A stretch of DNA of 23,873 nt, from assembly GCA_021808425.1 (NCBI GenBank), contig JAKBBS010000036.1, positions 1 through 23,873 of the forward strand, in the 5' to 3' direction. Shown one piece after another: positions 5,711 to 18,137 of this stretch. Positions within the stretch are counted from its first letter, which is position 1; each line of letters opens with the position of its first letter. Both the position numbers and the translations under genes were made by a program. The notes beneath the pieces are model-generated. The model searched no databases, had not been told where the DNA came from, and saw only the letters and a list, made by a program, of their open reading frames with translations. The DNA is from Actinomycetes bacterium. GTDB taxonomy: Bacteria > Actinomycetota > Acidimicrobiia > Acidimicrobiales > Palsa-688.

Positions 5711-8140
5711 TCACAGGTTAGCTGTCTCTTCGTGCACCAGGCCACGCCGTGCAGTCGAGCTCGCGAATGTGGTAGCCCATTTCGACTGAGGGTCCGCGTC
5801 GACGAGGGCGCTACGCAAAGCGGCCGTGTCTGTCGGTCGGCCGCCGCCAAGCTCGGCAATGTCGGCGTCGTGTTCGAAGTCGCGGACGAGCTGTTCGAGT
5901 CGAAGCGCCAAGATGTCGTCATCGACTGACATCCGCGGCGAACGTCCACCGAGCAAAGGCAGTGCTTCGTGGATCCACGACTGTATCCAGGCCTGTTCAG
6001 CCTCTTCTGAGCCGGGGCTGTGGAGGCGAGCCCTGCCGTCCGCTATCAGCGACCGGCCACCCAGGTCCTTGTCGAGGCGACGGGTCACCGAAAGGCCGGT
6101 CACTCCCGCCCTCCCGAGAATGCGGGCTAGAGCTCCGAGTCGCTCTAGCGAGTTCACTTCCACGCTTAGATGGTCGTCGAAGATTGTGACGGTCCCACGA
6201 ACCCAGCGGCGAGGACCGTTGCTCATCTGTACGGAGGCCGGGTCGAGTCCTCGGCCTATCATCGCCTGGCGTGCCGCCTCCAAAGTCGACTGTTCCTCGG
6301 CAGGTGTCAGCTCGCGGCCGTGCCAGACTAGCTGCACTGACCCGTCGCCTCGGTCGCCTTCGTCGAAGTCCGGCCGGCGAGCAAGGACCTGCTTAAGCGC
6401 GGAGGGATCCTCCACAGACCCGATGGCATTGAGCATCTCCATCGCTTCTCCGTCGGAGTTCTTGATCCGATCGGCGCGTGCGCGCGAAGCCGAGATGTCG
6501 CCTAGCAGGTTTGCCAGCATCAAGCCGGTGACTGTGTGATGCATCGCCGCGGACTCCCGCTCCATCGGAGCGTCGAGTTCGGCCAGCACTCCGTGTGGCG
6601 GAGGGTCGTCGACAAGCGGCCGCCTTGGGTTGTCCGACATGCTGCCTGGTAAGCCGAGCTCCCTCGCCATGTGGACTGCTACTGCTTCCGTAGCCGTCTG
6701 CAGCACCTCCACTGCCCGGTCAGCCTCGAATGGGTACAGCCGGGCGAGCGCTGTCCCCGAGCGCCAGACGCCCCGGTCCGGGACGACCGTCCCGGCGAGG
6801 ACCGTCCATCGGGGTAGGTCGACGATTTGGGAGGGCGCAAGATGCACCCAGCGCCTCGAGTTCGTCACGAGGTCGGTGAGCCACAGTCCAGGCCGTTCGG
6901 AGGGGTCTTCGACCTGCCAGAGTCCGCACTCGGCGCGCCGTGACCACCCCAAGGCCAGTTCGCCCTGCTCGGGCGGCGTGGCGGGGTCGTCGGCGAAACG
7001 CCGTATGAGCGAGTTGCGGTTCGGGTCTTCGCTGTCGCGTGCTATTCGCTCGGCGAAGCTCGCCTCGACGTCTGGATCGTCGTCTTGCGGCCCACGCTGC
7101 CAGAGGGCCTCTGTGGCGATCCGGGTCAGCGGGTCGGCGCCCGAGGCCCCGATTCCGGCGTCGAGCGTCACCTCTAGACGCGAGCGTCGAAGCTCTTCCC
7201 CGGCGGTCGGCTCGACGGCCCATTGGGCGGTCTCTTGATGAAGCCAATCGGCAACCTCCGGGTCGCGGGCGACCCACTCGTCGAAGCTGGCGTGCAGAGC
7301 GCCTATGGTTGCGCGGTTCGTGACCCTCCCAAGAATTTCCACTTCTCCGGCGTGGCAGCAGTCCGACCAGGCGTTTTCGCTCCCGCAGACGCACGAGTCG
7401 CGGGCTGCGGACGGATCGGCGTGGCGTTGCGCGATATTTGTCACTGACGCCGCAAGAAGGTTCATCGCGCCAACGTCGAAAGGATCCGCCTCGCAAAGTT
7501 CGAGGGCGAGCCGGGCGGCGCCGAGATATCGACCTGTCTCCAGTCGAAGCTGAGCCAAGGCGACAGCGGCGACGCGAGTCGGGTCGCCGTCTTCAACGGT
7601 GGTTGTCGCGGAGCGGGCGCCTTGTTCTGTCGGCGTCGCCTGTTCACGGCCACCGGTCAGCTCGAAGGCCTCGGTGGCAGCCGCGTCCGCCGCCAGAGCC
7701 CGGCCGGCAAGTTGATAGAACGATGCGGCCCACCACAGCATTGCGGCTTTCACCGAGAAGCGCTTCTCGGTGGTAGGCGCTGTGGAGGCGGACGGCGTGG
7801 ATGGCGCGCTTTGTTCGCCCGCCATCGTCTGAAGCGACAGCGCGATATCGGCGGCTCTCTCGACTGCTTGGTCACCAAGCTGGTTGGTCAGGTTTACACC
7901 TCGGACAGCGATGGACGGGTCCCTCAGTCCGTCATAGGAGCCGCCTTCCTTCAAGCGTTTGGCCAGGAGTTCCGCAAAACGTTCTGGGGGTGACGCAAGG
8001 TCACTAGCGGCATCGCGAAGCTCGGATACCACTGCGACGATGTCGCCGACGAGGGACCTGACGTGGCCGAGTTCTTCACGTCGCTGTTTCGCGGCGCGGC
8101 GGATCTCGTGCTGGCGCTTCTTGTCTCGCTTGGATGTCAC
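5711..8140 (-). CDS. Large protein of unknown function with a SEC-C zinc motif
   Basis: I do not recognise a named family for the whole 809-residue protein. It begins with a very basic, coiled-coil-like segment (about 1-30, rich in Lys, Arg and Glu). Residues about 130-240 are Ala-rich helices that may be TPR-like (QLRLETGRYLGAARLAL). A compact SEC-C motif follows: C250-x-C252-G-S with C261-C262-H263, as found at the end of SecA and in many unrelated proteins, where it binds zinc. The remaining 540 residues are hydrophilic, acidic and Trp-containing, with no signal peptide or membrane helix, so the protein is likely cytoplasmic. The start is GTG at 8140, and it is divergent from the acetyltransferase gene across 96 bp. 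It stands alone as a transcription unit. Frame continuity and codon use support a real gene. Confidence 0.8.
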   Translation of the reverse strand: MTSKRDKKRQHEIRRAAKQRREELGHVRSLVGDIVAVVSELRDAASDLASPPERFAELLAKRLKEGGSYDGLRDPSIAVRGVNLTNQLGDQAVERAADIALSLQTMAGEQSAPSTPSASTAPTTEKRFSVKAAMLWWAASFYQLAGRALAADAAATEAFELTGGREQATPTEQGARSATTTVEDGDPTRVAAVALAQLRLETGRYLGAARLALELCEADPFDVGAMNLLAASVTNIAQRHADPSAARDSCVCGSENAWSDCCHAGEVEILGRVTNRATIGALHASFDEWVARDPEVADWLHQETAQWAVEPTAGEELRRSRLEVTLDAGIGASGADPLTRIATEALWQRGPQDDDPDVEASFAERIARDSEDPNRNSLIRRFADDPATPPEQGELALGWSRRAECGLWQVEDPSERPGLWLTDLVTNSRRWVHLAPSQIVDLPRWTVLAGTVVPDRGVWRSGTALARLYPFEADRAVEVLQTATEAVAVHMARELGLPGSMSDNPRRPLVDDPPPHGVLAELDAPMERESAAMHHTVTGLMLANLLGDISASRARADRIKNSDGEAMEMLNAIGSVEDPSALKQVLARRPDFDEGDRGDGSVQLVWHGRELTPAEEQSTLEAARQAMIGRGLDPASVQMSNGPRRWVRGTVTIFDDHLSVEVNSLERLGALARILGRAGVTGLSVTRRLDKDLGGRSLIADGRARLHSPGSEEAEQAWIQSWIHEALPLLGGRSPRMSVDDDILALRLEQLVRDFEHDADIAELGGGRPTDTAALRSALVDADPQSKWATTFASSTARRGLVHEETANL

Positions 8141-8236
8141 AGCGTCGATGATTGCAGGCCCAGCGGTGTCACGCGTTCAACCCATCGCAGGTACGGTTAT
8201 CGTGGGGCCGGCAGCGCAGTGATATTTTCTCCTTGA

Positions 8237-8746
8237 ATGAATCGGGCTCACATCGCAGGACTCGACGTCGCCGTTCGCGAAGCTTCAGTCGAAGACGCTG
8301 CGCGCCTCGCGGTGCTCCTCGACGGCGGGTCGCTCACCGTCAAGGAGGACGTTACAGACGTCGCTGCTTACCGCGATGCGCTTTCGGAGATCCTCGAGAC
8401 GGACGGCCAGACGGTACTGGTTGCTGAGCGCGCCGGTGAGGTTGTTGGAATGTGCCAGTTGATCACCTTCCGCCACATACAAGAGCGCGGGGGCAGGTGC
8501 GCGGAGGTGGAGTCCGTTCACGTCGACGAGGCGTGGAGAGGGCGCGGTGTTGGATCAACCCTCATGGGTGAGGCGGTACGCAGGGCTCGCGCCGAAGGGT
8601 GCTATCGGGTGCAGCTCACCAGTAACGTCGCCCGGGTCGATGCGCATCAGTGGTACGAAGGCCTTGGCTTCGAGGCCTCACACACCGGATTCAAGCTGTA
8701 CCTCGACGGGCGGGGTATCGCTAGAAAGCAGGGGCCGGGGTCGTAG
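8237..8746 (+). CDS. GNAT-family N-acetyltransferase
   Basis: A 169-residue single-domain GNAT protein, expected to move an acetyl group from acetyl-CoA to an amine; the acceptor is unknown. The acetyl-CoA pyrophosphate-binding loop is R-G-R-G-V-G (101-106) after AEVESVHVDEAW (strand 4), and the late motif QWYEGLGFEASHTGFKLYL (138-156) is typical of the family. An in-frame TGA directly before the ATG fixes 8237 as the earliest start. A TATTTT at 8223-8228, 8 nt upstream, may be the -10 of a near-leaderless transcript. The next gene (Fur family) begins 3 nt after the stop, so the two form an operon. Confidence 0.9.
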   Translation: MNRAHIAGLDVAVREASVEDAARLAVLLDGGSLTVKEDVTDVAAYRDALSEILETDGQTVLVAERAGEVVGMCQLITFRHIQERGGRCAEVESVHVDEAWRGRGVGSTLMGEAVRRARAEGCYRVQLTSNVARVDAHQWYEGLGFEASHTGFKLYLDGRGIARKQGPGS

Positions 8747-8749
8747 CGC

Positions 8750-9244
8750 ATGGAAAGCCTGCTCGATGTCGACCTACTCCCTGAGCCGCGCACGGGGCCT
8801 GCGGCTAGCCCGCAGGACGTGCTCGACTTGCTACGCACGAACGGTGGGCGGGTTACCCGGTCGAGGCGGGTGCTGCTCGACGTTTTGTTCGAAGCTTCGA
8901 GGCACTTAAACGCAGAGGAGATCGCCGAAGCGGTCGCACGAGTCGAGCCGGCGGTCAACATGTCGACGGTCTACCGCAACCTAGATGAGCTCCAGCACCT
9001 TGGTGTCGTCGTCCACACCCACCTGGGCCATGGACCGGCGACGTACAGGTTGGCGGCTTCGGCCCACCCACATCTCTACTGCGAAACCTGCAGGGGGATC
9101 TTCCACCTGCCGCCGGCGGTCTTCGACGAATTGGTGCACGTAGCGTCTCGCGAACACGGCTTCACCGTCGATGCCAACCACTTCGCGATCCCGGGTCGCT
9201 GCGCCGGCTGTGTGGCAAAAGGTGTCGCCCCCGGGGTGCCTTAG
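8750..9244 (+). CDS. Fur-family metal-responsive regulator
   Basis: A 164-residue Fur/Zur/PerR-type repressor. The winged helix covers about 23-88, with the recognition segment NMSTVYRNLDEL (70-81). The dimerisation domain has the metal-ligand run AHPHLYCETC (105-114) and DANHFAIPGRCAGC (141-154). The two Cys pairs, C111/C114 and C151/C154, are those that hold the structural zinc in the family. Which metal or signal it senses cannot be told. It is translated 3 nt after the acetyltransferase stop. Its TAG overlaps the TAA of the convergent acetoacetyl-CoA synthetase gene, leaving no room for a terminator between them. I found no obvious Fur box in the window. Confidence 0.92.
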   Translation: MESLLDVDLLPEPRTGPAASPQDVLDLLRTNGGRVTRSRRVLLDVLFEASRHLNAEEIAEAVARVEPAVNMSTVYRNLDELQHLGVVVHTHLGHGPATYRLAASAHPHLYCETCRGIFHLPPAVFDELVHVASREHGFTVDANHFAIPGRCAGCVAKGVAPGVP

Positions 9245-12952: not shown

Positions 12953-13633
12953 GTGGTACCCAGAGACGCCCGACGATATGGGCCGCCGCCCGTGCGGCGT
13001 CACCTTGCGCATCCCCGTTCGAAGGCCGACGCAGGCGTAGAGTCGAACTCGCGCCTGACTGGGTCGACGGCGCTCGCCCTTCTGCTTCTCTTGGCGGTGG
13101 AGGGGGCGACGATTCTTCAGATCTCGTCGCATGTGAGCATCCACGTGTTCGTTGGCATGCTGCTGATCCCGCCCGTGGTACTCAAAATCGGCTCGACATC
13201 ATGGCGTTTCGTCCGCTATTACAGCGGCTCCCCGGCGTACGTGCGCAAGGGGCCGCCCGCTCCGTTGCTGCGCCTCCTCGGTCCTTTCATCGTCGTGCTG
13301 ACCGTAGTGATGCTCGCCTCCGGCGTGGTGCTGGTGCTCGTGCCGAAGTTCGCGGGAAGCCAGATGCTGTTCATCCATAAGGCGAGCTTCGTCTTGTGGT
13401 TCATTGCGATGGTGGCGCACGTGCTCGGCCATCTCGCAGAAACTGCTCGCTTGGCGCCCCTCGACTGGGTCTACCGGACGAGGTCGCAGGTCGCGCACGC
13501 CACAACCCGTCAGTGGGCGCTCGTGATCTCGCTGGCGGTCGGGCTGCTATTGGGGGTGGCGATGATCGGCCCAGCGTCGCATTTTCTCACCAACTTCTAC
13601 GGTCCGAGCGGCTTCAAGGCGCACCACCGCTAG
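12953..13633 (+). CDS. Membrane cytochrome-b-like protein (cytochrome b561/DUF4405-like)
   Basis: A 226-residue protein with about four membrane helices: near 37-56, 62-80, 106-128 and 142-160, plus a last helix near 190-206. Conserved-looking histidines fall in pairs in the helices: H60/H64 (SSHVSIHVFVG), H142 (LFIHKASF) and H156/H160 (VAHVLGHLAE). This is the pattern of a heme-binding quinone or electron-transfer cytochrome, so a transmembrane electron carrier is likely; heme binding is inferred. The frame is open from 12839, but GTG 12953, 6 nt after TACCCT, fits better, since the earlier part is not protein-like (Cys- and Pro-rich). It precedes a block of four redox-related genes by 109 nt and is probably part of the same functional unit. 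Confidence 0.72.
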   Translation: MVPRDARRYGPPPVRRHLAHPRSKADAGVESNSRLTGSTALALLLLLAVEGATILQISSHVSIHVFVGMLLIPPVVLKIGSTSWRFVRYYSGSPAYVRKGPPAPLLRLLGPFIVVLTVVMLASGVVLVLVPKFAGSQMLFIHKASFVLWFIAMVAHVLGHLAETARLAPLDWVYRTRSQVAHATTRQWALVISLAVGLLLGVAMIGPASHFLTNFYGPSGFKAHHR

Positions 13634-13641
13634 ATTGGCGA

Positions 13642-13657
13642 CGCCTGTCCGCAGGCG
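13642..13657 (+). terminator. Hairpin after the cytochrome-b-like gene
   Basis: CGCCTG, loop TCCG, CAGGCG forms a perfect 6-bp stem 8 nt after the stop codon. There is no T-tract, so termination or processing here is only plausible. The next gene has its own promoter at 13731. Confidence 0.4.
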
Positions 13658-13730
13658 AGCGCACGAATCGGATGACCCCGTAATGAGAGAATTTTAAGGT
13701 CCGTCTCATGCGGTCATCATCTCGAAAGCC

Positions 13731-13736
13731 GATAAT
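13731..13736 (+). promoter_or_regulatory. -10 element of the redox operon, leaderless arrangement
   Basis: GATAAT is followed by GAAAAA and the GTG at 13743, again a 6-nt spacing. It would drive the Gly/Ser-rich gene, apbE, the ferric-reductase-like gene and the ferredoxin. No clear -35. Confidence 0.55.
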
Positions 13737-13742
13737 GAAAAA

Positions 13743-14279
13743 GTGAGTCGGACTTCACAACGCGATCGCGCCGTGCAACTCCTCCGTTCAAGCACGAACT
13801 GGCTGACGGCCGGAGCGCTCGCGGGCACCGGCTTGCTATCTGTCGGTGTAGCCATGTCGCTACCGGGCCGCTCGACGTCGACGACCGCTGCTAGCGGTGG
13901 AGGCGTCGCGTCGGTGTCGTCTGGATCTCCGGCGTCATCGTCCGGCTCGACCTCGGGCTCCCAGGCGTGCTCGACGGTGCTGCCGTCAGGATCGACGCCG
14001 CTCGGCGGTGGCCAGGTGCTGGGCGGAGGGTCGGGTCTCTTGCCGGGTTACTCCGGAGGTTACCGATCTGACGACGGGTCGGGCGGGGGCCGCGACCGCT
14101 CCGGCGGAGGCGACGGCTTCGGATCCGATACGGCCTTCCTAAGCGGACCGACGGCTGGGACCGGTGTCACGGTCCTGGCCGCCTGCGCATCCAACCAGGG
14201 CTCGCAGCAGTCGTCTCCCCAAGTTGCGGCGCCTCAACCGGCGGTACAGGCGCCGATTGTGTCATCCGGAGGATCGTGA
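13743..14279 (+). CDS. Membrane-anchored Gly/Ser-rich low-complexity protein
   Basis: A 178-residue protein of unknown function. Residues about 19-40 form a single hydrophobic segment (signal anchor or uncleaved signal), after a basic N-terminus. The rest is a disordered-looking Gly/Ser/Thr-rich stretch with only two cysteines, C76 (QACSTVL) and C148 (LAACASN), a possible disulfide pair once outside the membrane. There is no FMN_bind domain and no clear D-x-x-S/T-G-A-T flavinylation motif; LSGPTAGTGVTV (133-144) is only a loose similarity. Its position as first gene of the operon with apbE, overlapping it by 4 nt (GTGA), makes it the candidate extracytoplasmic partner by location alone. The GTG start is set by GATAAT 6 nt upstream. 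Codon use and the precise overlap with apbE support a real gene. Confidence 0.7.
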   Translation: MSRTSQRDRAVQLLRSSTNWLTAGALAGTGLLSVGVAMSLPGRSTSTTAASGGGVASVSSGSPASSSGSTSGSQACSTVLPSGSTPLGGGQVLGGGSGLLPGYSGGYRSDDGSGGGRDRSGGGDGFGSDTAFLSGPTAGTGVTVLAACASNQGSQQSSPQVAAPQPAVQAPIVSSGGS

Positions 14280-15313
14280 GCGGTGCTGGCGGAGTGACGG
14301 TGCCGGCGGCGAAGCCAGTAGGACACGGACCGCTCGCCAATGGTATCCACCATGTGTCGACTTTCGCTGCGCTTGGGACGACGGCGGTGCTGTTCGTCAC
14401 CAAAGCCGGCTCAGGTTCCGATGCTCTTCGAATCCTCACGTCGTGGGTGTCCGACATCGACACGGCCTGCAGCCGCTTCAGAGCCGACAGCGAGATCATT
14501 TCGTTGGGCCGTGCGCAGCGAGGCGGCCCTCAGGCGGCGAGCCGACTGCTTTTCGAGGCCGTCGAAGTGGGGTTGCGGGCCGCGGAGCTAACAGGCGGGA
14601 TCGTGGACCCGACAGTCGGCGCGGCAATGCAGCTGATCGGCTACGACCGGGATTTTCCTCTAGTCGCAGAGGACGGACCTGCGATCACCTTCAAGGCGGT
14701 CTCGGTCCCTGGATGGAGAGCAGTGAAGTTGGACTACGACCGTCGCACGGTGGATGTTCCTCCCGGCGTGGTGATCGACCTGGGGGCGACGGCCAAGGCG
14801 CTGTGCGCCGACCGCGCAGCCCGGTCGATCGCAGAGGAGCTGAAGACCGGTGTCTTGGTCAGTTTGGGTGGCGACATTTCCGTGGCAGGGCCGTCTCCGG
14901 AGGCGGGATGGCCGATCCGGATTGCCGACGATCACGCTGCTCCCTTGGACGGCGACGGCCCGGTCGTTTCGATACTCTCCGGCGGCCTGGCGACGTCCTC
15001 GACGACAGTGCGCGCGTGGAAGCGGGGAGGTGTGGCGATGCACCACCTGATCGACCCCGCTACATCGCTTCCGGCCCGGGAGTACTGGCGAACAGTAAGT
15101 GTCGCCGCCGGCTCCTGCGTCGACGCGAACACTGCGTCGACTGCTTGTATCGTTATGGGTGCGGGGGCTGCCGGCTGGCTTCGGCGGAACTTCCTTCCCG
15201 GCCGGCTCGTGCGTCCGGACGGCAGCGTGGAGACCGTCGGCGGCTGGCCGGCTGACCCCGAGGCGGCCTCGGCCTCCCACGCGCCCGCGAACCGACAGGC
15301 GGTCGCGTCGTGA
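14276..15313 (+). CDS. apbE: FAD:protein FMN transferase, ApbE family
   Basis: ApbE enzymes take FMN from FAD and attach it covalently to a Thr or Ser of a target protein in an electron-transfer chain. This 345-residue protein has the family motifs in order: DIDTACSRFRADSEI (60-74), GGIVDPTVG (107-115), VIDLGATAKALCADRAA (166-182), SLGGDIS (196-202), ATSSTT (239-244), HHLIDPATSLPA (256-267) and DANTASTACIVMG (283-295). HHLIDPATSLP has Ser where the family often has Gly. The N-terminus (about 25 residues) shows no signal peptide or lipobox, unlike many ApbE proteins, so it is probably cytoplasmic or the true start is missed. Its GTG overlaps the preceding TGA by 4 nt, and its TGA overlaps the next GTG by 4 nt. 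Confidence 0.92.
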   Translation: MSGAGGVTVPAAKPVGHGPLANGIHHVSTFAALGTTAVLFVTKAGSGSDALRILTSWVSDIDTACSRFRADSEIISLGRAQRGGPQAASRLLFEAVEVGLRAAELTGGIVDPTVGAAMQLIGYDRDFPLVAEDGPAITFKAVSVPGWRAVKLDYDRRTVDVPPGVVIDLGATAKALCADRAARSIAEELKTGVLVSLGGDISVAGPSPEAGWPIRIADDHAAPLDGDGPVVSILSGGLATSSTTVRAWKRGGVAMHHLIDPATSLPAREYWRTVSVAAGSCVDANTASTACIVMGAGAAGWLRRNFLPGRLVRPDGSVETVGGWPADPEAASASHAPANRQAVAS

Positions 15314-16023
15314 TCCTCGCGGCGGTCAATTCGCAGGATCTCTGGTACACGACGCGCGGGTCGGGGATCATGGCTCTCTTGTTGCTCACGGCGTCGGTGG
15401 TGCTCGGGATCAGCCAGATCGGGCGGGTCTCCGGGCAGTCGATGCCGAGGTTTGTGGTGGCGGGGTTGCACCGCAACGTCTCCCTTCTCGCAGTCGTATT
15501 TCTCGGACTGCACATAGCTACTGCCGTAGCGGATCCTTTTGCCCCTATCACGGTCGCAGACTCGTTCGTGCCTTTCGTCGGCACGTACCGCCCGATATGG
15601 CTTGGACTCGGTGCGATAGCCACCGATCTGCTCGTAGCTTTGGTGGTGACAAGTCTGTTGCGTTACCGGATCGGCTTTCGCACGTGGCGAGCGACGCACT
15701 GGGTGTCGTACGCCTGCTGGCCGATCGCCGTGTGGCACGGGCTCGGAACCGGAAGCGACAGCCGTGTCGGGTGGGTGCAGTTGATCTACGTCGTGTGCAC
15801 GGTCGCGGTGCTTGCTGCTCTTGGGTGGAGGCTAACGACGCGATGGGGAGGAACTGATCCAGGGCAGCGAACGCTGGCGGCCTTCGGCGCCGCTGTGGTT
15901 ACCATCGCGCTAACGGCATGGGCGTTTCAGGGACCGCTACGCCCCGGCTGGGCTAAGCGGTCTGGCACCCCATCGGGCCTTCTCGGCGGAACGACGACCA
16001 CGACCTCGCCGTCGGGTGGATGA
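15310..16023 (+). CDS. Ferric-reductase-like transmembrane cytochrome
   Basis: A 237-residue membrane protein with about six helices. The four histidines typical of the ferric-reductase-like (FRD/MsrQ) heme-binding core are present: H54 (GLHRNVSLL) and H68 (LGLHIATAV) in one helix, H130 (RATHWVSYA) and H143 (AVWHGLGTG) in another, so two b hemes are likely by analogy. The family moves electrons across the membrane to iron, quinones or methionine-sulfoxide repair. There is no NAD or flavin domain, so it depends on partner proteins, presumably the flavoprotein made by ApbE and the ferredoxin downstream. The C-terminus ends in a Thr/Ser/Gly tail. Its GTG overlaps the apbE stop by 4 nt. Confidence 0.85.
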   Translation: MILAAVNSQDLWYTTRGSGIMALLLLTASVVLGISQIGRVSGQSMPRFVVAGLHRNVSLLAVVFLGLHIATAVADPFAPITVADSFVPFVGTYRPIWLGLGAIATDLLVALVVTSLLRYRIGFRTWRATHWVSYACWPIAVWHGLGTGSDSRVGWVQLIYVVCTVAVLAALGWRLTTRWGGTDPGQRTLAAFGAAVVTIALTAWAFQGPLRPGWAKRSGTPSGLLGGTTTTTSPSGG

Positions 16024-16035
16024 GAGGATCCGCTG

Positions 16036-16302
16036 GTGGCGCTTAGAAAGCAACAATTGCTCGTCGTCGACCCGATCGCGTGCGAGGCGCACGGGCTTTG
16101 CGCGGAATTGCTCCCTGAGATGATCGTGCTCGACGACTGGGGGTATCCGATCGTGGCGGCGGGGCCGGTGCCTCCAGCTGCACGGGTTCACGCCCGCAGA
16201 GCTGTTGCGGCGTGCCCGACGCTAGCTCTTCGACTGGTCGACGCCCCGAGCGCGCCCCCCTCGCCGTCTCGGGGCGACGGCACACAGCTGCGGCGCAGTT
16301 GA
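16036..16302 (+). CDS. Small [3Fe-4S]-type ferredoxin
   Basis: An 88-residue protein with the single-cluster pattern C-x5-C (CEAHGLC, 16-22) and a later CP (ACPTLAL). Three cysteines and the lack of a fourth in the usual place point to a [3Fe-4S] cluster, as in actinobacterial ferredoxins that serve P450s. DPIACEAHGLCAELLPEM and RAVAACPTLAL match that family. The last about 20 residues are Pro/Ser-rich. The start is GTG at 16036, 12 nt after the ferric-reductase-like stop, with GAGAGG a few bases upstream as ribosome-binding site. It is the last gene of the redox operon and would supply electrons to the membrane cytochromes, or possibly to the P450 at 3947-5218. Confidence 0.85.
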   Translation: MALRKQQLLVVDPIACEAHGLCAELLPEMIVLDDWGYPIVAAGPVPPAARVHARRAVAACPTLALRLVDAPSAPPSPSRGDGTQLRRS

Positions 16303-16430: not shown

Positions 16431-18137
16431 ATGAGTGCCAAGCACGCACGTAGTCATTCGACGGGCAGTGGTGGTATGTCCAAAACCTTCAAGCGAGTCC
16501 TGATATCTCTGGGTGGGCTTGCGGTCGTAGGCGGGGTCGGCGTAGGAGTTGCGCTGTCGGTCGGACAACCGAAAGTGTCGGTCGCTGCCGGCCGGAATCA
16601 TCTGTTTACCTTGAAGGTAGGCGGGGCCGGCGCCACTCTGAGCAGCGTCACAGCGTCCGCCGCTGGCCACTCCATTTCCCTCGTGCGGTCCGGCAGCGGG
16701 TACATCCCAGCGTCGGCCGTGCCCCAGGGCGAGACCGTGACTGTGACAGCCACGGCTTCGGCTCCGTCGTGGCTCGGATGGCTAGTCGGGTCGGGTGCCT
16801 CCCAGACGATCACAGTGCGCACTCCGGCTGCGAGCCCTTCAGGTTCGTTGGCTCTGGCGCCTCAGCCCGGTCATCTGCCGGTCAATTTCAGTGCGCCGGT
16901 AAGCGTTGTCAACTACAGCTTCGGGTCCGGGCCGATGAAGACGCTGCACCTCGCCACCCCGTCCACCCAAGCGGACCTTCCGTCTCCGGGGACAATGCTC
17001 GCCGGCAAAGTCACAGTCAGCGCCAGCCCGCTCCCGTGGGAGCAGCCCCAAAGCCAGCCTTCCACATTGACCTGGTTCGTTCAAAGCCCGACAGGACCCC
17101 CGGTGGCTATCGTCAACCCGTCACCCGGAAGCTCGACCGCTACGTCCGACGCCCCGATTTCGCTCACCTTCGACCAGCCGGTCTCGAAAGTTCTAGGCTC
17201 GTCACGGCCGACTTTGAGTCCCTCGGTAGCAGGAAGCTGGTCCCAGCCAGGACCGGACCAGCTTGTCTTCACCCCAAGCGGTTTCGGATATGGGGCAGGT
17301 AGCACCGAGACAGTATCGTTCGGCCGATCGGTCAACTCGATCGGTTCGTCGAGCGCGAGCGTCTCGACCACGGCCGCCGTCGCCTCTGAGTCCTTCAAGT
17401 TCCAGACGGCCCCCGCCTCACTGCTGCGCCTCGAGCAGATCCTCGCTTCGCTGCACTACATACCGTTGAAGTTCGCCCCGGCCTCGGGTGTGAGCCTCCC
17501 CACGACGATGGCCGGCGAAGTGGCGTCGATGTCCCAGCCGCTCGCCGGGTCGTTCTCTTGGAGGTGGGCGACGACACCGGCGTCCCTGCAGTCGCAGTGG
17601 TCCGTCGGCGCCGCGAACGAGATGGTCAAGGGCGCGCTGATGGACTTCAACGCTGTCCGTAATGCCTACGACGGCTACAACGAGGAGTTCGCGTCGGTGG
17701 CCCAGCTAGCGACCCCGTCGCTTTGGCGGGCACTCCTGCAGGCGTCGCTCGCAAAGCAGATGGACCCGAATCCCTACTCCTACGTGTATGTCACCGAGCA
17801 GCTGCCCGAGACTCTCACCTTGTGGGAGAACGGTTCCGTGGTCCTCACAGCTGCAGCGAACACCGGCCTGCCCGGCTATGCGACCCAACTCGGGACCTAT
17901 CCGATCTACATCCGCTTCACTCAGAACTGGATGAACGGCACGAACCCGAACGGCACCACGTACCACGACATGGTCTACTGGATCAACTACTTCTACGGTG
18001 GGGACGCCGTCCACGCGTTCCCCCGGGCCACCTACGGCTCGCCGCAGAGCCTCGGGTGCGTGGAGCTGCCCAAAGCGACTGCCCAGGTAGCGTTCAACGA
18101 TCTGGCAATAGGAGACTTGGTCACAGTCGTCAGCTAG
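16431..18137 (+). CDS. L,D-transpeptidase (YkuD domain) with Ig-like domains
   Basis: A 568-residue cell-wall enzyme expected to make 3-3 peptidoglycan cross-links or attach proteins to the wall. The basic N-terminus is followed by one hydrophobic segment (about 22-44), a signal anchor that puts the rest outside the cell. Residues about 50-320 are Ser/Thr/Gly/Pro-rich beta-type repeats like bacterial Ig-like domains, including PSPGSSTATSDAPISLTFDQ (232-251). The catalytic YkuD domain occupies roughly 440-568, with H528 (HAFPRATYG) and the active site S540-L-G542-C543 (SLGCVELP). After the Cys the usual Arg is replaced (CVEL rather than CIRL). A second possible start is ATG 16476. It follows the redox operon but has its own promoter. 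Confidence 0.87.
   Translation: MSAKHARSHSTGSGGMSKTFKRVLISLGGLAVVGGVGVGVALSVGQPKVSVAAGRNHLFTLKVGGAGATLSSVTASAAGHSISLVRSGSGYIPASAVPQGETVTVTATASAPSWLGWLVGSGASQTITVRTPAASPSGSLALAPQPGHLPVNFSAPVSVVNYSFGSGPMKTLHLATPSTQADLPSPGTMLAGKVTVSASPLPWEQPQSQPSTLTWFVQSPTGPPVAIVNPSPGSSTATSDAPISLTFDQPVSKVLGSSRPTLSPSVAGSWSQPGPDQLVFTPSGFGYGAGSTETVSFGRSVNSIGSSSASVSTTAAVASESFKFQTAPASLLRLEQILASLHYIPLKFAPASGVSLPTTMAGEVASMSQPLAGSFSWRWATTPASLQSQWSVGAANEMVKGALMDFNAVRNAYDGYNEEFASVAQLATPSLWRALLQASLAKQMDPNPYSYVYVTEQLPETLTLWENGSVVLTAAANTGLPGYATQLGTYPIYIRFTQNWMNGTNPNGTTYHDMVYWINYFYGGDAVHAFPRATYGSPQSLGCVELPKATAQVAFNDLAIGDLVTVVS

Follow-up and report, generated by a model that had tools for sequence, protein, structure and literature searches.

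A 23,873-nucleotide stretch of actinobacterial DNA (Actinomycetes bacterium, contig JAKBBS010000036.1, positions 1 to 23,873; hereafter the window) carries five genes, A to E, at positions 12953 to 16302 of the forward strand, which probably encode an MsrQ-like transmembrane electron-transfer system in which protein B, a flexible arm tethered to the membrane, is the acceptor of the flavin transferase ApbE. In the proposed mechanism, ApbE (protein C) would attach flavin mononucleotide (FMN) as an ester to the last residue of B, a Ser or, in a few relatives, a Thr, which closes the conserved tetrad [S/T]-G-[G/A]-[S/T]. Ferredoxin E, and in relatives also a NuoF-like NADH dehydrogenase, would reduce the cytochrome D from the cytosol; the hemes of D would move the electrons over the membrane; and the FMN on the end of the arm would collect them for delivery to an extracytoplasmic acceptor, for which iron, a quinone and oxygen are guesses. 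Within this scheme, we infer covalent FMN, heme occupancy, the direction of the electrons, a tail outside the membrane and the final acceptor. ApbE is reported to modify the last Ser or Thr of an [S/T]GA[S/T]-like motif (PubMed Central [PMC] records PMC8238504; PMC11334425), and it is the combination of such a site at the tail of B with ten genomes lacking a detected standard acceptor that points to flavinylation of B.

Anchored low-complexity proteins with a near-constant end were seen, with no motif used, among the open reading frames (ORFs) that end near the start of apbE. In the window, B (13743..14279, +) ends in ...APIVSSGGS, and its last four residues (Ser-Gly-Gly-Ser, codons TCC GGA GGA TCG, 14265..14276, +) form the putative flavinylation tetrad, with FMN proposed on the last Ser. 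For comparison, genome contigs were scanned with an alignment of D; 246 relatives were confirmed and 80 loci kept (set 1, these 80 plus the window), mostly from actinobacterial metagenome-assembled genomes (MAGs) but also from nine isolates (Streptomyces, Actinoallomurus, Micromonospora, Actinocrinis). With the last eight residues of every ORF hidden, the selection yielded a B-type ORF for 73 of the 81 sequences (no pick in L006, L017, L019, L030, L036, L047, L051 and L060), and 68 of the 73 ended exactly in [ST]G[GA][ST]. Among 5,559 other ORFs with a length of 100 amino acids or more, 8 had this end, and of 4,275 internal positions examined in these linkers, 6 showed the pattern. Four of the five misses ended in SGQS (L008), TSGS (L011), SAVS (L038) and SGGSAP (L044), and the fifth was a wrong ORF at L013, where the true B ends in SGGS. 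A motif-based search recovered B in 75 of the 81 sequences (58 SGGS, 5 SGAS, 4 TGAS, 3 TGGS, 2 SGAT, 1 SGGT, 1 SGQS and 1 SAVS), including 11 with the classical SGAT, SGAS or TGAS forms, which have Ala at position -2; the six others were L017 (a contig end, SGGS visible), L044, L011, L060 (no B) and the contig ends L030 and L051. Entropy in these 75 proteins was 0.24, 0.80, 0.10 and 0.45 bits at positions -1 to -4 and 1.89 to 3.52 bits at the other printed positions; since they were selected using the motif, it is the blind count, and not the entropy, that gives a fair measure. Outside the tetrad the sequence of B has changed greatly, the mean column identity over 73 sequences being 13%. The new type of acceptor that an earlier note on this DNA had thought implied (unless the acceptor lay elsewhere), with B as the candidate, is well supported in silico.

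The remainder of B is consistent with a tethered arm. In an AlphaFold model, residues 3 to 39 (13749..13859, +) form one helix, a predicted membrane anchor or signal (predicted local distance difference test [pLDDT] 75 to 94 over residues 1 to 40), and most of what follows is coil with a pLDDT of about 45 to 60. The linker after the helix spans 36 to 167 residues (median 66) among relatives, and for 63 of 75 the charge distribution predicts a tail on the outer side of the membrane. An A-x-A-like site precedes a conserved Pro in 48 of 75, so B could be anchored or cleaved. No Pfam family above the cut-off was found for B of the window; among the 73 of 75 B proteins covered by family scans, no domain was recognized, families at E ≤ 0.01 matched at most 3 of the 73, and FMN_bind (PF04205) was not among them.

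The gene set around B recurs in relatives beyond what chance would give. The five ORFs of the earlier note are present in the window as it had stated, with four-nucleotide overlaps at B/C and at C/D, a gap of 12 nucleotides at D/E and 109 nucleotides from the end of A to B. Across the 80 loci, matches were found to ApbE in 62, to ferredoxin E in 64, to a NuoF-like protein in 65 and to A, anywhere, in 23. In most loci the ApbE gene is found beside B and D or close to them, and the commonest order is B-C-D-NuoF-E (25 of 80), with others such as C-B-D-NuoF-E also seen. Usually a NuoF-like gene stands between D and E (the L003 copy matches Complex1_51K and NADH_4Fe-4S). The two closest relatives of the window have A-B-C-D-E in identical order, their sets lacking a NuoF-like gene, with a homologue on another contig (46 to 47% identity); likewise, neither a NuoF-like nor another nicotinamide adenine dinucleotide-binding cytosolic donor was found in the gene set of the window. 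The neighbourhood search suggested in the earlier note thus bore out the conservation of the set, but with A optional and a NuoF-like gene usually added. Nor does the usual neighbourhood include a separate FMN_bind gene, whose constant presence the earlier note had taken as what would speak against a new acceptor.

Further B-type genes were observed away from this arrangement. G002, one of the two closest relatives, has a second one (L110:9086-9934, -) that ends in VVSGGS. It lies directly before the NuoF-like homologue (7707-9002, -), with neither apbE nor D nearby; no intact B is seen at the equivalent place in G001 (L109, before 6917). One cluster, L022 (also L134, L145 and L148; G016:C107), contains three tandem D genes and two B-type genes.

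As the earlier note had stated, the block lacks a standard ApbE acceptor: neither FMN_bind nor another described acceptor was matched in the Pfam scan of A to E. A census was extended to the genomes of 40 of the 80 loci. ApbE was present in all 40, and FMN_bind at E ≤ 0.001 in 19, including the two closest relatives of the window; of the 21 genomes without such a match, two carry a divergent copy. In 10 of the 40, the single ApbE is that of the cluster itself (coordinates compared by hand; the G013 copy is split over two frames). These ten genomes, mostly incomplete MAGs, gave no match to FMN_bind (E ≤ 10), DUF2271 or DUF3570, the three classes searched (Flavodoxin_4 and FMN_red were not searched). 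Divergent FMN_bind-like proteins were noted at L118:2204-2716 and L125:2496-2951 (NMVSGAS), too weak to pass the initial threshold of the family search.

Tails of related form extend beyond set 1. A second set of D relatives comprised 24 loci, of which 20 were left after removal of four repeats (L081 and L083 by genome, L085 and L087 by identical tail): nine had exact tetrads in a motif-based search, three had SSGS, six had cysteine-type tails, L092 had none of these and L102 was a contig end. A third set of 18 loci included nine in places already covered; the other nine gave four exact tetrads (L135, L139, L141 and L142), TRVS (L137), SSGS (L140) and three without a visible B in a short flank. 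Among more distant ApbE clusters (set 4, 15 loci, of which L158 had no suitable ORF and L149 repeats L120), ORFs were picked by eye from frames with less than 16% Arg, and 12 of 14 ended in [ST]xxS (e.g., TRAS, TRTS, SRAS, TASS and SGGS), the exceptions being L157 and L161; the background for an [ST]xx[ST] end is 150 of 5,559 ORFs. Examination of 18 further ApbE places in FMN_bind-negative genomes revealed nine [ST]xx[ST] ends, one cysteine-type tail, two FMN_bind-like proteins, three with none of these types and three (L122, L126 and L127) in which TGGS or TGAS (TGAS in L126 and L127) stops two to five residues short of the end. An upstream low-complexity protein ending in [S/T]-x-x-S, often TRxS, was also observed at the distant ApbE clusters L113, L115 to L117, L119, L120, L123 and L149 to L163.

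Protein C (14276..15313, +; ApbE, PF02424, 9e-46) matches solved FMN transferases, and alignments with solved ApbEs were used to map its triad to the V. cholerae numbering. Ser241 and His257 are kept in all 62 matches among relatives. The third triad position (V. cholerae Asp285) is residue 285 of C (15128-15130), beside an invariant Cys281. A supposed covariation of ApbE residue 283 with the type of tail was dropped; the triad position is 285, and Asn stands there in the cysteine-tail clusters shown as well. In two distant clusters (L120 and L123), Glu was seen by eye at the triad Asp position.

Several observations weigh against flavinylation of B. The triad Asp is replaced by Asn in C and in 62 of 62 matches, which may mark either a specialized enzyme or a warning about activity. 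By a crude hydrophobicity measure, only 3 of 62 ApbE proteins have a clearly hydrophobic N-terminus, while charge puts the tail of B outside; as C has no obvious export signal, the tail would have to receive its FMN on the cytosolic side, ahead of its passage through the membrane. The leading Asp of the consensus D-x-x-[S/T]-G-A-[S/T], three residues before the first Ser or Thr, is missing from the tail of B, and its importance differs between the published accounts: it is described as essential for V. cholerae ApbE in PMC10722498, and its loss as having minor effects only in PMC12052999. The latter also reports Ser to be a poorer target than Thr, and the tails of B mostly end in Ser. The last 20 or so residues of the B model, without regular structure, are not its least confident part (pLDDT about 69 to 80). 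Cysteine-type tails, e.g., CYTSPSGNVTCY, replace SGGS in the B-type proteins of L095 to L100 (the ORF before ApbE) and L121, with ApbE retained; D is present without B at L060; and G014 and G001 have a single ApbE together with three FMN_bind matches and one, respectively, so that one ApbE may serve both kinds of acceptor.

Some of these points would suit a conserved tail that is not flavinylated at all and works as a signal in docking, sorting or processing, read by D, the NuoF-like protein, a protease or an export factor, while ApbE modifies something else. Such a signal could explain why the tail is present also where apbE is not adjacent and why cysteine-type and TRxS tails occur, and it would sit easily with Asn in the triad; yet the residues kept are those that ApbE recognizes, in 11 of 75 proteins as an exact SGAT, SGAS or TGAS, and ten genomes offer no other detected acceptor among the three classes searched. 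We regard this explanation as unlikely, if worth keeping in mind. It is improbable that the acceptor is an FMN_bind protein from another part of the genome and B an accessory linker protein: a match at E ≤ 0.001 in 19 of 40 genomes, the two closest relatives among them, speaks in favour of this, but 21 of 40 have no such match (two of them with the divergent copy), the FMN_bind gene of G002 adjoins an ApbE of its own, and the conserved tail of B would be left unaccounted for.

Very little probability attaches to the extra C-terminal domain of longer D relatives as the flavinylated site, which was rejected: about 130 additional residues are found in 73 of 120 listed relatives, but [ST]GA[ST] occurs after residue 215 in only 9 of the 73, scattered, D..[ST]GA[ST] occurs in none, and the domain is missing from D of the window. 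Scarcely more than a formal alternative is that SGGS is the by-product of an in-frame Shine-Dalgarno site for the next gene. In its favour, the window codons TCC GGA GGA TCG lie just upstream of the apbE start; against it, Ser or Thr at -4 and -1 would be unnecessary for such a site. Among 58 B genes next to apbE, the codons at -3 are GGC in 24, GGG in 15, GGA in 14, GGT in 4 and GCT (Ala) in 1, and those at -2 are GGC in 19, GGA in 10, GGG in 10, GGT in 8, Ala codons in 9, CAA in 1 and GTG in 1; Ser at -4 is written with five codons, and codons vary at all four positions. Where B with an exact tetrad lies directly before D (16 loci), codons vary in the 15 tabulated. A Shine-Dalgarno-like 5-mer at the tetrad was found in only 18 of 75 B genes, and on these codon tables and counts the by-product was rejected. 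The same variation, together with the scarcity of the 5-mer, implies that selection acts on the last four residues of B at the level of the protein.

The membrane and donor proteins fit the proposed electron-transfer route. D (15310..16023, +; Ferric_reduct, PF01794, 3e-10) is an MsrQ-like membrane cytochrome by family with four invariant His (H54, H68, H130 and H143) in 14 aligned relatives and six long predicted helices in a model of moderate confidence (pLDDT 62.7); a comparison of its sequence with solved structures gave one match only (E 0.2). A (12953..13633, +), a membrane protein and candidate b-type cytochrome, had no Pfam match above the cut-off and has an uncertain start, with an open frame from 12839; numbered from that base, its four conserved His are H102 (21 of 22 sequences), H180 (22), H194 (22) and H198 (19). 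Both cytochrome-like proteins, in which the earlier note had pointed out heme-ligand-like His, thus have conserved His. Its inclusion of A in the core did not hold: in 15 of 80 loci A lies within 3.5 kilobases of D on the same strand, and it is an optional neighbour outside the core set, probably an extra b-type cytochrome used by a minority of lineages. E (16036..16302, +; Fer4_15, 3e-12), the proposed cytosolic electron donor, is a small single-cluster ferredoxin whose three Cys fit the [3Fe-4S] type. Next after E in the window is an L,D-transpeptidase-like gene by Pfam (16431-18137, +), in the same position in the two closest relatives, L001 and L002; elsewhere in the window, an 809-residue ORF (5711-8140, -) has no Pfam family at E ≤ 0.001.

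Taken more broadly, the sequences lead us to favour, with some reserve, the view that Actinobacteria use natural flavin-tags: fold-free tethered arms that would carry FMN on a carboxy-terminal residue and end in [S/T]-x-x-[S/T]-COOH, served by at least two ApbE subfamilies (with Asn, or with Glu in the few checked), some lineages having swapped the flavin tip for a cysteine-containing one. A domain-free ApbE acceptor appears to be new; a search of the open-licence PMC literature (subscription papers and preprints lay outside its scope) found no description of a natural acceptor that is fold-free, disordered or C-terminal, and terms looked for in PMC4767422 were absent too. If the proposal is true, a flavin can function from the tip of a flexible tether, and there would be an explanation for part of the genomes with orphan apbE genes that Meheust et al. 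could not account for (4%, 670 genomes, in their survey; PMC8238504). Acceptors of the B type would escape surveys that rely on domains and signal peptides.

The membrane and donor half of the system resembles, and lies close to, the MsrQ-like clusters of ApbE with PF01794 proteins that Meheust et al. (2021) reported as common in Actinobacteria; 31 of those clusters include a NuoF-like gene (PMC8238504). As described there, a PF01794 protein lies within five genes of apbE, as in the window, and the NuoF-like gene of those 31 clusters has its counterpart in most relatives examined here, though not in the set of the window itself. The system that the earlier note put forward as a candidate undescribed one is therefore apparently new in its acceptor, its ApbE and PF01794 half having been reported already. 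MsrQ-like systems are portrayed in that survey as typically having an FMN_bind gene, whereas the proposed acceptor B has no recognized domain; the survey filter, as given in its text, was a signal peptide or lipidation on ApbE, FMN_bind or DUF genes, and here ApbE passes the hydrophobicity threshold in 3 of 62. The substrate classes listed in PMC8238504 and PMC11334425 (FMN_bind, DUF2271, DUF3570, Flavodoxin_4 and FMN_red) are all recognized domain families. Like them, B has an [S/T]GA[S/T]-like site (SGGS in the window, with Gly for Ala) and a co-localized apbE. An FMN_red protein of L. lactis is reported to have its flavinylation sites on an unstructured C-terminal extension (PMC11334425), but in FMN_red and Flavodoxin_4 the site adjoins a flavin-binding fold, whereas B is domain-free and its site is the end of the chain. 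By its anchor and low-complexity linker directly before an ApbE without an obvious signal peptide, B looks like the anchor-linker-FMN_bind acceptor of G002 (L111) minus its fold; that protein, encoded in a classical cluster after a PF01794-like protein, has the site ISGAT, ends in an FMN_bind domain and is served by an ApbE that keeps the triad Asp (ICDALAT). Engineered flavin-tags likewise indicate that a short terminal peptide is enough for ApbE (PMC12052999; PMC10722498), seven-residue tags reportedly being most effective when placed at either terminus of the chain, N or C (PMC12052999); those tags are artificial and have the leading Asp, whereas the end of B is natural, conserved and without it.

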